The notes under the pieces were generated by a model, which saw nothing but the letters and a program-made list of their open reading frames with translations, ran no database searches and was not told where the DNA came from. A stretch of 64,000 nucleotides of DNA from Heterostelium multicystogenum. Its lineage: Eukaryota > Evosea > Eumycetozoa > Acytosteliales > Acytosteliaceae. Shown one piece after another: positions 9,975-64,000 of this stretch. The position numbers and the translations under genes are program-made. The DNA lies in the NCBI GenBank assembly GCA_003667245.1, contig RCNN01000041.1:93539-157538 (forward strand). The letters are read 5' to 3'. Numbering within the stretch: the stretch's first letter is position 1; each line of letters opens with the position of its first letter.

Positions 9975-10684
9975 CCAACCAAAACCAAATACAAACTCGG
10001 TCCTAATTTAATTTAATACAACAATAACATGATTATATGTGTATTTGATAATAGTATATATACGTATGGAACAATAACAAATAATAAATGAATAATATTA
10101 GTTAATATTACAATATCTATATATCTAGCTATATATCTATCTATATATCTAACATTATGTCTATATCAAACTACTTATTTATCTTCGATCTATCTCTTCT
10201 AAAAATCATATATCTAGTGTTTGTTCTGAATTAGGTTAAAGTTAAAATTAAGTGAATTGGAGTGAGGTAACAACGTGACATGCAAATATATGATGGGTGT
10301 CATGAATGAATGAATGAAAGAATGGATGATGTTCATCGAAGTCTGTTTTTATTTGAATCTCCGATATCTGCAAATCAAAATCTTAGGCCCCAAAACCAAA
10401 TATAGAAATTCTTTAAATGGTATTTAATTAATTAAAATACTAATAGTATAATCCAATTCAAATTACATGAATCAACAGACTAAAAATACATATTCAACTA
10501 AATACCTATCTATTTCTTAATGAATGAATAATATTCTAATTAATCTCAAGTCTCATTTTGGTAACCCTTCCTTCTGTTCTGTTCTGTTCTGCTGTTCTAT
10601 TCCTTCTATCTGAACAATATCCATCGAATATATATCAATGTGTTTTTTGTTTATTGTTTTTGTAAAGTTAGATCAAATTAATTA
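9975..10684. other. AT-rich intergenic region
   Basis: Holds short TATATATCTA and GAATGAAT tandem runs (about 10100-10160 and 10300-10320). It is probably the promoter side of the helix-turn-helix gene. No RNA gene is seen. Confidence 0.55.
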
Positions 10685-11071
10685 ATGTCTATCTCTGAAG
10701 AATTAAGACAAAAGATAATTGAGAGTTACACAAGGAACGATTCCAAAGCTCAGATTTCAAGAACTTTGGGCATCAGTCGTGGAACTGTCCTCAATACTAT
10801 CGTCAGATACCAACAAACGGAAAGCTTGCACGATAGACAGCGTCCAGGTAGACCTAGAGTTTTTAGCAATCATATTAGAAAAGAAATAAGTCGATTGCTT
10901 ATTTTCAACAAGTGCAAGACTATGCCTCAGGTGAAGGAATATATCCTCGAAAACTACAATGAAAATATTTCTCTGAGTCAAATCCAAAGAATAGTACATT
11001 CCCAAGGATTGTCACACAGGCAAAGAACCAGGTCCGAAATACTCAACAAAGTATCCAAAAAAGAAGCATGA
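10685..11071 (+). CDS. Transposase-derived helix-turn-helix DNA-binding protein
   Basis: A 128-residue intact frame beginning MSISEELRQKIIESYTRNDS. It has the two-part DNA-binding layout of Tc1/mariner transposases: a first helix-turn-helix (AQISRTLGISRGTVLNTI), the linker motif RPGRPRVF (AT-hook-like GRPR), then a second helix-turn-helix (ISLSQIQRIVHSQGLSHR). The protein stops about where the DDE catalytic domain would begin, and no DDE remnant is visible in the following 270 bases. An AATAAA follows the stop at once. It is either a truncated transposon copy or a domesticated DNA-binding protein. Terminal inverted repeats were not seen. Confidence 0.75.
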   Translation: MSISEELRQKIIESYTRNDSKAQISRTLGISRGTVLNTIVRYQQTESLHDRQRPGRPRVFSNHIRKEISRLLIFNKCKTMPQVKEYILENYNENISLSQIQRIVHSQGLSHRQRTRSEILNKVSKKEA

Positions 11072-59809: not shown

Positions 59810-61237
59810 ATGACTTCAAATACAAATAATATAGCTATAGTGGAAAGACTACAGGATACCAAAAAATGATAGTGCGGTGTGTGCTTGTAACTCTCATGTC
59901 CAGACAATGAACAGAGTGTTGTGTATGGATTGCAATCTCTATGTTTACTCAATTGATGACATAACTGATCTACACTTCAAGCACAATGTATTCTCAAACA
60001 ATTCACTTGACACCTATTTGAGAAAGGAGCACATCATCGATGATCGGTTCAACGAGTTGATGAGGCAGCTCAAGGAAAATGCTGAAACAACTAGTCGACT
60101 ACAGCAGAAAGTGGTGAAGATTACTTCAGTCTTTAAAGATATATATGAACAACTCAGATTAGAGGAATACAAATTACGCAAGCCTATCGAGGAGGAGATA
60201 GAGAAATCTTTGGAATCACTAAAGACTATGTACAGTGAAATCATTCATTACTGGAAAATCAACAAATGGATGAATCAAACAGACAACAAAGAGGAAAACA
60301 ATCCACAAACAAATACGAAGGCAGAGAATAATACTCAATCATCAGCAAACCCTGATGATGCAAGTAACCAGATTAGTGGAGTAAATGGAGTTGAGACTTT
60401 GGATGTTAAAGTCGAAGGTAGCAGTGATATATGGTCTACCAATCTGGAAGAGATAGAGTCGACTCTCAATGAAATGAGAAATACTTTTGAGTATCAGTCT
60501 AAGGGCAACTATATAAAGTTGACAATGGACACCATCCATCCAACGAACATTGAGCACAATATTGGTGAAGAAACAAATGACAGTGAAGATGTATTGGTCC
60601 CAATCATCAACTTCAAGAATGGTCTAATTACATCGAAAATGAAAGAAACTAAACCTCAAGATTTCAACCTTATGGAGGAAATAAGATCGCATCAAGCTCT
60701 TTTATGGAAACTATACTTACAAACGACCGAAGCCAGTGGAACCGATGTTAAACAACAAAATTACCTATCTCCAAAATGGTCTACATAAATTCATTGAACA
60801 AACTCTCAACTCCAAAGTAACAGTGTACATTAAAGTACCAACTAAAAATGAGCCAAACACATTCAGTGAACCATTTATCCTACTAGACCATACTTGGTAA
60901 GTAAATCACAAGTCATCTAGTCCTTTTTATAACTTATATTAATATCAAATCCAACTCTATTATCAGGAAGATTCAAATAAGAAAGAATTTCGATCGAGAA
61001 TGCAATAAGTGGATATCATTGTTTTTATGTTTGGATATGTTCAATGTACCATTAAATGTGGAATTCCAGCTAGAAATTGGTTCGAAATCTCACCTACTAA
61101 ATTATTACTACAATGAGGCCATTGGATTTGGTCTGACAGAGTTCATTTCCGTCACAGACTTTTACAAGAATGTTGAGAACAACTTCGTCAAAGTTACAGC
61201 ATCAATATGCCCCATAGATGGTGACACTGAATTATAA
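59810..61237 (+). CDS. B-box, coiled-coil and MATH/TRAF-like domain protein
   Basis: The start at 59810 (MTSNTNNIAIVERLQDTK) needs one base dropped from an AAAAAA run to continue with SAVCACNSHVQTMNRVLCMD, a B-box-like Cys/His finger ending near HFKHNVF. A long helical stretch follows (ELMRQLKENAETTSRLQQKV, LEEYKLRKPIEEEIEKSLES). After an Asn/Glu-rich linker and a break near 60787 comes a MATH-like domain: WSTNIHKFIEQTLNSKVTVY-type start, PFILLDHTWKIQIRKNFDRE across an intron (60899-60965), KWISLFLCLDMFNVPLNVEF and GLTEFISVTDFYKNVENNFV. Dictyostelids have many B-box/TRAF-like proteins. Ligand unknown. Confidence 0.7.
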
Positions 61238-61323: not shown

Positions 61324-64000
61324 TTAAGAATTGCCTCCGCCACCTTCGTCATTTTGGAATAGTGAAGAGAATGGATCGATTGGTGTGTCTACCTGTTGTT
61401 GATTTTGATTAATACCTCTTTTGGGATGTATTGGCACAAAAGAAGATGAAGGAATAAATTCCTCTAAACAATTGGTATCGACCAAAGGTGGACTGATGAC
61501 TTGTTCATGAGTAGCAGTGTTGCCATGGTAAGGTTCAAAGATATCATCTTGGCACTTCTTAAGATTCTCTCTATCCAGTATGTAGAGTCCCATATCACCT
61601 TTGCCCTTCACAGTAATCGATGCTTTTCAAAAATATATTTCTTACTCAGCAGGTTATATGTATTCTCGCTAACACAAATCTTGTCAGGTATTCCGGAACT
61701 TTCCATTCTGCTAGCAACATTTACTGCGTCACCCCATAAATCAAAAGAGAACCTTTTCTTCCAATAACTCCAGCAATAGCATCTCCAGTATTGATACCAA
61801 TTCTTAGGTGAATATCATATCCATACTTTTGATTTTACTCTTTCAACTAAGTCCAAGAGATTATTGGCAAACATTACAGCCTTATTGGCGTTGTGCATGA
61901 TTTTCTGGTCAGAATAGTTTCCATTTTCTGTTGTATACAAGTCTGGTGAAATAATATGTGAATCATCTGAAGAGCTATGCCAAGGTAGACCACAAACAAC
62001 CATATCTAATATCGTTAAATCAGTAAAATGCCAAAGTAAATAGTTAAATATTCAACTTACATGAGTCACCAATGGTCTTAATCTTTTCTAACTGCATTGT
62101 TTCCGATAGATCGTCGAATACAGAATATAATCGGTTTAACATAAGAACTAGATTTCTTGGAGAGTAATTATTTGTCATTTTGGTAAAATTTACAATATCC
62201 GCAAAGATAATCGATATTCCAGAACACTCCTCTGCAACATAGATTTCTCCTTGTTTCATTTTATTACTAATAGCTGTACAATATATAAAAGTTCCATTAT
62301 TAGTATTTTTTTAATTTTTAATGATAATGGTTTTTATTTACCAGTTGGTAAAAAGTTGAGTTAATTAAAATATCTGATTTTAAATTTCTCCATCTTTAAG
62401 GCTGTAGTTAGTTTTGATAGTTTATCTCTAACTCTTTTATTTACAATCGATGTAATAAGAATAAAAAAAGAAGCACACCATTAATGACATAATTGATATA
62501 TTCTAATTAAAAGTAAACAACAAGTTAGTTATATTTTTAAAATGAGGTGGAATTGATTAACCTACTAAAGCCAAATAGTAATTATTGTCACCTTGAGTGA
62601 ATCCCATATCTTGGTATCGGTAGATGACAGATTGCATTGCAGTTATAATGCATACCACACACTCCTAATCCCATTATCAATGATGAAAGGAGATGTTGTG
62701 AGATGGGTGTTGGAAAAAGCTGTGATATATAGTGCCAGCCAAAGGATGCAAGCCAGGCAATAATAAAAGATAGAATCACTATCCATGCAATCCAATGAGA
62801 AGTTGCATTCATTCTCATCGCCATCATTCCTGTGTAATGCATTCCGAATATTCCAACTGCGAGTAGGAAGCTACCTGCTGCCAATCTAAAAAATGTATTC
62901 CTGTTGTTTGTACCATATACTGGATGATATGAATCCATTGTGAAATATGTATTTTTTAAACTTCATCCACATTGTTTTCTTTTTCTTGGGTATATTTTCA
63001 AAGTTGCTGTTACTACTTATATTATTATTATTACTACTATTATTAGTTTTGTTGTTATTATTAAAATCGACAGAGCTATCTACTAGATCCTCTAATTCAA
63101 AACCATTCATTTGGTTTTTAGGTGAATGTAATGCGCTATTGGTAAATGTACTTTTATATGTGTGTAAATGGGTGAGTTGTGCGTTGACGAGTTTGATATT
63201 GAGAAAAATGAAGAAGATAAATAATTTGGAGTTGGTGTTGGTATGAACAATCGTTATAATAAAATATATTCTCACTGTATTTGTTGTTGGAGAGTTGGGA
63301 TAACTGATGATGCTGTTTGTAATATTATTATTATTTGTTGATTTGGATTTAAATTAAGAATGATTTTTTATTAAAATAATGATTTGTTCTCACCATCATA
63401 GGGGCGGAGTCTGGAGGTTGAAATTTCAGGGGTTGATTGTTCTCGTTCCAGATGAAAGTTAGAGTTTTCATTGAAAAAGGGCTTTACCAAAAAGTTTCGA
63501 TTGAAATAGATTGGCGATGATGTCAATCCATCTTTGAATCTTGTATGGCCTCTATTAAGTCCACTCTCGAAGGATCATCAATATTATTTGTATATTTTTT
63601 CGAATTTGTTATTTGGAGTTGGAATATTTGATCAAAAGTGGGCAATCTTCATCACCTTCCTATAAAGTCAACAAAGCCATTTGGGGAATTTGGTTGTAAG
63701 GAACATTTAGACCAATTCTACATGAAATGACTGCAACCAAACCAGAGAGAATTGTCAGACCAATATCATAGGAAACTGGAGTTCCCACAAAGATACCAAG
63801 CCATCATACCAATGAAATGCATACTCCTAAAAATTCCGAGAGGTAAGTGAAAATTTCAGAGAAGTAATTACCATTTGCATCTCTACTTACCATACTGCAC
63901 ATCCTCCTAAAGATATAGAACTTAATGCTAGATATAATTGCTTGACTATCCTTCCTTTGGGACAGTGACATTTGTGTGTCAAAATCTGGAAGTATGTATA
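61324..64000 (-). CDS. MHYT-domain membrane adenylyl/guanylyl cyclase (5' end outside window)
   Basis: Reading right to left: ALSSISLGGCAV/WSMHFIGMMAWYL (intron 63837-63890) is the first MHYT unit. A polar, Asn-rich insert lies around 63000-63500. GSFLLAVGIFGMHYTGMMAM is the second unit and LIMGLGVCGMHY.AMQSVIY the third. A short helical linker (VNKRVRDKLSKLTTALKMEK) follows, then LPTAISNKMKQGEIYVAEEC. The class III cyclase core has both metal Asp (FADIVNFTKM and KIKTIGDSYMVVC, the latter spliced over an intron), NTGDAIAGVIG, and FDLWGDAVNVASRMES with the Asn and Arg used in catalysis. The Lys of KIKTIG and Asp of FDLWG fit ATP rather than GTP. The C-terminus is polar. One-base breaks near 63763, 62650, 61830, 61750 and 61630. 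MHYT is a membrane sensor domain known mainly from bacteria and fungi. Confidence 0.85.

Follow-up and report, generated by a model that had tools for sequence, protein, structure and literature searches.

Gene content of the contig end

The window analysed here, a 64,000 nucleotide stretch of the Heterostelium multicystogenum genome (C41:93539-157538), ends at position 64000 because contig C41 itself terminates there, at 157538. Next to this end, on the minus strand, lies a gene that would encode a membrane-embedded MHYT module joined to a class III nucleotide cyclase (Table 1). Three-frame translation from 64000 recovers the three MHYT motifs, the linker and the complete cyclase domain, spread over all three frames but in the order, on the strand and at the places originally predicted. 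The last aligned base is 61327, directly followed by a TAA codon at 61326-61324; at the other extreme, the end of the contig means that approximately 36 N-terminal residues, including most of TM1, are absent. This loss of the 5' end, and the many small indels that break the reading frame, were not reported in the original prediction.

The gene structure was derived by frameshift- and intron-aware alignment to PPL_00592, an 836 aa protein of Heterostelium album PN500 (P0001), which yields four GT-AG introns of 55-68 bases each. All four were recovered at four of five penalty settings, and two of the four at an intron penalty of -40. The same four were found when P0002 or P0003, two further relatives described below, served as template, along with one more in the long loop, which these two proteins and P0121 place between approximately 63393 and 63080. 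The three exon junctions named in the original prediction are all in frame; the first intron is present as claimed, although its limits are 63890-63827 rather than 63890-63837.

Two other loci in the window were noted by eye. A convergent neighbour at 59841-61237 (+) is apparently also broken, with open frames of 315, 71 and 110 aa, and an open frame at 10682-11068 (+) contains a helix-turn-helix resembling the N-terminus of a Tc1/mariner-type transposase.

Table 1. Features of the MHYT-cyclase locus, in window coordinates
Feature	Position	Strand	Basis
MHYT-adenylyl cyclase gene (predicted), 5'-truncated by the contig end	61324..64000	-	Alignment to P0001 residues 37-836 of 836; contig end; sequence
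Intron 1 (GTAAGT..TTTTAG), directly before SMHFIGM	63827..63890	-	Same intron with P0001, P0002, P0003 and P0121 as template
MHYT motif 1, SMHFIGM, C-terminal end of TM2	63805..63825	-	Helix position taken from P0001
TM3 region, GTPVSYDIGLTILSGLVAVISCRIGL; several frameshifts after	63660..63803	-	Three-frame translation, alignment, P0001 hydropathy
Low-complexity long loop TM3-TM4, predicted cytosolic	62960..63660	-	132/219 residues as in P0001; exon borders inside uncertain
MHYT motif 2, GMHYTGM, end of TM4	62825..62845	-	Pfam E 2.4e-12 on 62645-62962
MHYT motif 3, GMHY(T)AM, end of TM6	62635..62656	-	Gly to Ala, adjoining a frameshift
Intron (GTAGGT..AATTAG)	62503..62565	-	Templates P0001, P0002, P0003, P0121; not placed with P0001 at intron penalty -40
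Intron (GTAAAT..GTACAG), before AISNKMKQGE	62274..62341	-	Templates P0001, P0002, P0003; not placed with P0001 at intron penalty -40
TM7, then helical linker / cyclase-transducer segment (SIVNKRVRDKLSKLTTALKMEK-SDILINS-LPT)	62250..62500	-	25/28 linker residues as in P0001; hydropathy
Class III cyclase catalytic domain, split by intron 62060-62006	61580..62235	-	PF00211 profile 3-182/183; 183/207 residues as in P0001; AC9 alignment
Intron (GTAAGT..TATTAG) at TIGDS/YMVV	62006..62060	-	Intron-aware alignment

Domain composition

A read-through of the gene, in which each frame break is translated as X, was used for Pfam and protein searches. It matches PF03707 (MHYT) in two stretches (E 5.4e-25, 87.6 bits against a cut-off of 21), P0001 scoring 118.2 bits in three, and PF00211 (Guanylate_cyc) at E 6.6e-52 over profile positions 3-182 of 183, corresponding to a complete catalytic domain. 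The window contains three repeats of the M-H-Y/F-T/I-G type (SMHFIGM, GMHYTGM and GMHY(T)AM), the third having Ala in place of Gly; here the window reads TAM where P0001, P0002 and P0003 have TGM, the third repeat of P0002 being LLHYTGM. Hydropathy analysis of P0001 identifies seven hydrophobic segments, of which TM2, TM4 and TM6 each end in an MHYT motif. Six or seven membrane helices are typical of MHYT proteins, a range into which P0001 falls; the window copy lacks most of TM1.

The cyclase domain carries FADIVNFT (metal Asp), EKIKTIGDSYM (Lys and metal Asp) and FDLWGDAVNVASRMES (Asp, Asn and Arg), all within one domain and identical in P0001. When aligned to the C2 domain of mammalian AC9, the Lys, Asp, Asn and Arg residues correspond, and the purine-site Lys and Asp are the pair found in adenylyl cyclases; the metal-binding, purine-site and transition-state roles given to these residues are the ones we assume for class III enzymes. 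The closest PDB sequences are the membrane cyclases AC9, AC8 and AC5, followed by single-domain cyclases. In none of the 58 PDB profile matches does the best stretch reach the MHYT motifs, all beginning at profile position 383 or later, equivalent to P0001 residue 481, behind motif 3. A bacterial MHYT protein (P0129) matches no PDB chain at E <= 1. Among NCBIfam models, the MHYT regions of six orthologues and relatives match a histidine-kinase subfamily far below its cut-off, and P0239 and P0122 match cyclase fusions weakly, again below cut-off.

Orthologues and the unity of the gene

Of the 7992 proteins scored in the search with the read-through, at least 558 reached E <= 0.001, and the best five all contain both domains. 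P0001 is the best match (E 1e-255), followed by Acytostelium subglobosum SAMD00019534_102120 (P0002); in each case the annotation is that of a hypothetical protein. Next comes EukProt P0003, which from its sequence similarity we take for a dictyostelid protein. Residues 37-836 of P0001 align to the window, with 559 of 736 identical (76%); for P0002, 295 of 591 aligned residues are identical. The match to PPL_00592 is far beyond chance, its alignment score being 2482 by default and 2258-2566 over five penalty settings, compared with 52-84 for five shuffled proteins. Identity to P0001 varies between parts of the protein: MHYT repeat 1 (69/78), MHYT repeats 2-3 (116/140), the linker (25/28) and the cyclase domain (183/207) are more alike than the loop (132/219) and the tail (34/64).

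P0001, P0002 and P0003 are single proteins that carry both domains in the same order. In P0001 and P0002 the correspondence extends along the whole length, the difference being that their frames are intact, whereas the window copy has frameshifts and lacks the first 36 residues. As intact orthologues hold the MHYT and cyclase domains in order, the claim that both belong to one gene is strongly supported, and the locus is almost certainly one real, selected gene. Two database models of relatives are less complete. That of Cavenderia fasciculata DFA_00676 (P0121) comprises three MHYT repeats followed by the linker and breaks off at ...SDVLLNSILPIRMSNF, before the cyclase domain and a few residues beyond the junction between exons that precedes the cyclase in the window; as it keeps the linker and stops just beyond that junction, it is probably a cut annotation of the same gene. 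The P0005 model is broken in the middle, where it lacks the second and third MHYT repeats as well as the beginning of the cyclase. The idea that neighbouring genes for an MHYT protein and a cyclase were wrongly run together, for which the MHYT-only P0121 and the broken P0005 could be cited, is so improbable in the light of the three intact orthologues, the near-identical linker in the window and the apparent truncation of P0121 behind a retained linker that it was rejected.

Origin of the frameshifts

Between 18 and 29 frameshifts are needed to align the window to P0001 across approximately 2.2 kb of aligned codons, depending on which of five penalty settings is used; 16 are needed for P0002, 18 for P0003 and 14 for the shorter P0121. 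These are most likely assembly errors, because a contaminant gene in the same assembly also needs eight and because 195 of the 202 columns that are invariant in P0001-P0003 and readable in the window are kept. Variable columns, by comparison, agree with P0001 in 236 of 322 cases. Such retention is the pattern that purifying selection would leave in a gene read with errors. The contaminant gene, a Pseudomonas-like sequence on contig C136, requires eight frameshifts in approximately 2.1 kb against each of six relatives and has no stop, sharing 560 of 684 residues with P0163 and 564 of 678 with P0169. A glycine dehydrogenase (GcvP) gene at 43860-40742 (-) in the window is similarly split into four pieces in different frames, with at least three breaks in approximately 3.1 kb, which again points to indel errors in this assembly.

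The alternative, that the frameshifts are real mutations in a decaying pseudogene, draws on differences between the locus and these comparisons. The locus has two to three times the indel density of the C136 gene and also exceeds GcvP in this respect, and the scored sign is mostly opposite: at the default setting, 24 of 28 indels in the window are extra bases, as against six of eight scored as missing bases in the control. The sole account offered for both differences is the position of the locus at a contig end, where coverage may often be low. Yet the aligned codons contain no stop, although one alignment shows a single stop within a part of the tail that is left unaligned; a pseudogene with enough time to accumulate at least 18 indels would be expected to have kept fewer of its conserved residues; and other genes of this assembly carry indels too. 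Decay is therefore very unlikely, although, given how many indels there are, the copy in this strain might be a young pseudogene.

Elsewhere in this genome, MHYT matches were found on C136 alone. This locus was rejected as kin, the contig being a contaminant of 63% GC with a Pseudomonas-like MHYT-GGDEF-EAL gene. The region C136:20500-30400 holds this gene, which is 82-83% identical to Pseudomonas proteins, and frames that by eye resemble efflux-system genes.

Phylogenetic relationships

The cyclase tree comprised 53 rows, from which a same-genome domain on contig C19 (below the length filter), a domain on C76 and the broken P0005 model were left out. The window gene forms a clade with P0001, P0002 and P0003 (100/100), and six other cyclase domains of the same genome lie elsewhere; taken with its architecture, this supports the view that the gene is distinct from the known dictyostelid cyclases. 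Holding the four MHYT-cyclases together with those six domains gave p 0.031 in the AU test, a weak result because the six are themselves mixed. In the MHYT tree of 31 rows, the window gene groups with P0001, P0002, P0003, P0005 and P0121 (99/99); a branch supported at 95/88 has all 15 bacterial rows to one side of it.

MHYT repeats joined to PF00211 also occur beyond the dictyostelids, in Acrasis kona P0242 and EukProt P0239 and P0240, as well as in P0004, P0238, P0241 and P0122. The former resemble the window gene in this combination, but their cyclase domains are on another branch, where six Acrasis-like MHYT-cyclases form a separate group (84/30). P0122 is placed near the guanylyl cyclases on a long branch; its purine-site motifs, KVETVGD and FQLFGD, look more guanylyl-like. 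A single clade of dictyostelid and Acrasis-like forms had p 0.407 for the cyclase domains (ten rows), 0.233 with P0122 included, and 0.136 in the MHYT tree, so a common origin of the two is neither shown nor rejected by these sequences. Among the 120 matches listed for each of three protein searches, one list omitting P0003 and P0004 although both are in its query alignment, there is no Dictyostelium MHYT-cyclase, and none of the listed proteins with both domains (5/120, 4/120 and 7/120) is a fusion with a bacterial name.

Comparison with known cyclases and MHYT proteins

AcaA, AcgA and AcrA are, like the window gene, class III cyclases of this group of organisms, and feed PKA. According to the accessible text of PMC4758236, AcaA has two cyclase domains and two sets of six helices. 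By contrast, the read-through and P0001-P0003 have a single cyclase domain. AcgA, as we understand it, has a CHASE-type extracellular sensor between two helices, and AcrA presumably histidine-kinase-like and receiver modules. No Pfam match to CHASE, histidine-kinase-like or receiver domains was found in the read-through or P0001-P0003, the CHASE matches of this genome being on contigs C411 and C29 rather than C41. Elsewhere, contigs C203, C70 and C19 each have two cyclase matches at one locus, which would fit three ACA-like genes as in Polysphondylium pallidum.

The PDB entries 7yzi and 5o5k, both named 'Adenylate cyclase', share with the window gene a helical transducer followed by a single cyclase domain (profile match to 7yzi, E 2.3e-55), but their membrane part is not MHYT; we take both to be mycobacterial homodimers. 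The N-terminal half is instead comparable to CoxC of Afipia carboxidovorans, in which a membrane MHYT sensor likewise precedes an output domain. CoxC is a bacterial MHYT-LytTR protein, a CO sensor with a DNA-binding output in place of the cyclase. One source, as far as its accessible sections go, describes the MHYT domain of CoxC as sensing CO and needing copper, places MHYT motifs near the outer face in bacterial MHYT proteins, and reports that a change in the second MHYT motif of MucR abolishes the response to nitrate (PMC11347149).

A candidate mechanism

The gene probably represents an overlooked type of dictyostelid adenylyl cyclase, acting as a homodimer in which the MHYT module gates cAMP synthesis through a copper-bound gas. 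Its predicted product is a single chain in which three MHYT repeats and a linker precede a complete catalytic domain. The seven helices would be oriented with the N-terminus outside, leaving the TM3-TM4 loop (approximately 280 residues in P0001), the linker and the cyclase in the cytosol; with the cyclase cytosolic, this arrangement should bring all three MHYT motifs to the outer face, at the ends of TM2, TM4 and TM6. The Lys of EKIKTIG and the Asp of FDLWGD suggest ATP as the substrate, and the enzyme very probably makes cAMP. As each monomer has both metal Asp residues and the transition-state Asn and Arg, two identical subunits could form two active sites. By analogy with bacterial sensors, it is likely that this activity is under the control of the MHYT module. 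Met, His and Tyr side chains would bind copper, to which a diatomic gas (O2, CO or NO) would bind in turn, and the resulting movement, transmitted by TM7 and the linker, would alter the production of cAMP, a step presumably upstream of PKA. Such gating by gas and copper is a hypothesis carried over from CoxC to a eukaryotic protein, and we give about an even chance to the ligand being a copper-bound diatomic gas.

Alternatively, the protein might be a guanylyl cyclase, or a cyclase regulated through its cytosolic loop or by G proteins, with the MHYT domain a mere membrane anchor or dimeriser. The TM3-TM4 loop is indeed long, with partly conserved segments (132/219 residues as in P0001), and the MHYT domain of CdgB is described as responsible for its membrane localisation in the accessible part of PMC11347149. 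However, the purine-site residues are those of adenylyl cyclases, and the MHYT motifs persist in P0001, P0002, P0003 and P0121, a conservation that a simple anchor would not require; in the P0005 model repeats 2-3 are missing. These alternatives are accordingly unlikely, and MHYT-gated synthesis of cAMP is preferred.

Relation to dictyostelid cAMP signalling

The architecture is real, conserved and apparently undescribed, and combines two known domains. Literature on MHYT, cyclases, dictyostelids, amoebae, Naegleria and eukaryotes, searched also with the two locus tags and covering subscription papers thinly, yielded no description of an MHYT-cyclase. Publications that join MHYT with cyclase and Dictyostelium, amoebae or eukaryotes are bacterial by title, and there is no mention of an MHYT-cyclase in the accessible portions of PMC4758236, PMC4931340 and PMC5055082. 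The surprise comes mainly from the setting, as cAMP signalling in dictyostelids is a heavily studied, textbook system. Dictyostelia are credited with 'their three adenylate cyclases' (PMC9922732), counted as AcaA, AcrA and AcgA (PMC9922732, PMC9583560), and the cyclases named in P. pallidum are Aca1-3, AcgA and AcrA (PMC9583560), in each case in the text accessible from these sources. An additional type, equipped with a sensor of its own, would alter the count in P. pallidum.

This species is of particular relevance, since we take H. album PN500 to be the same strain as P. pallidum PN500; the same gene is thus apparently present in a species in which the known cAMP-making genes have been knocked out. 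Some fruiting bodies remain in the P. pallidum triple aca mutant, for which its authors, in the accessible text, point to ACG as the other source of cAMP, and the acra-acga- mutant is reported in the corresponding part of PMC4399386 to sporulate without encysting. A further cyclase is therefore evidently insufficient for encystation in that mutant. It could contribute to the residual fruiting and sporulation, although the authors attribute these to the Aca enzymes or ACG.

More speculatively, MHYT-adenylyl cyclases might be old eukaryotic copper-based receptors for O2, CO or NO that make cAMP, predating the split between amoebozoans and heteroloboseans, retained by some dictyostelids but perhaps gone from Dictyostelium itself. 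They would couple oxygen or another gas to PKA-driven encystation or fruiting, and would account for some of the cAMP still present in P. pallidum once the known cyclases are deleted. We consider this broader scenario unlikely. A single divergent membrane adenylate cyclase, AKO1_008377, is named in the A. kona genome paper, and the term MHYT is absent from the main text of that paper as far as accessible. Because the activity of this eukaryotic MHYT protein would give a simple enzymatic readout, what MHYT senses in eukaryotes becomes directly testable.

Other eukaryotic outputs may be joined to the same module. MHYT-histidine kinases were seen in two chytrids (P0125 and P0126), and P0123, with MHYT repeats, an RGS domain and a weak PAS match, has the appearance of a eukaryotic MHYT receptor with a G-protein output.
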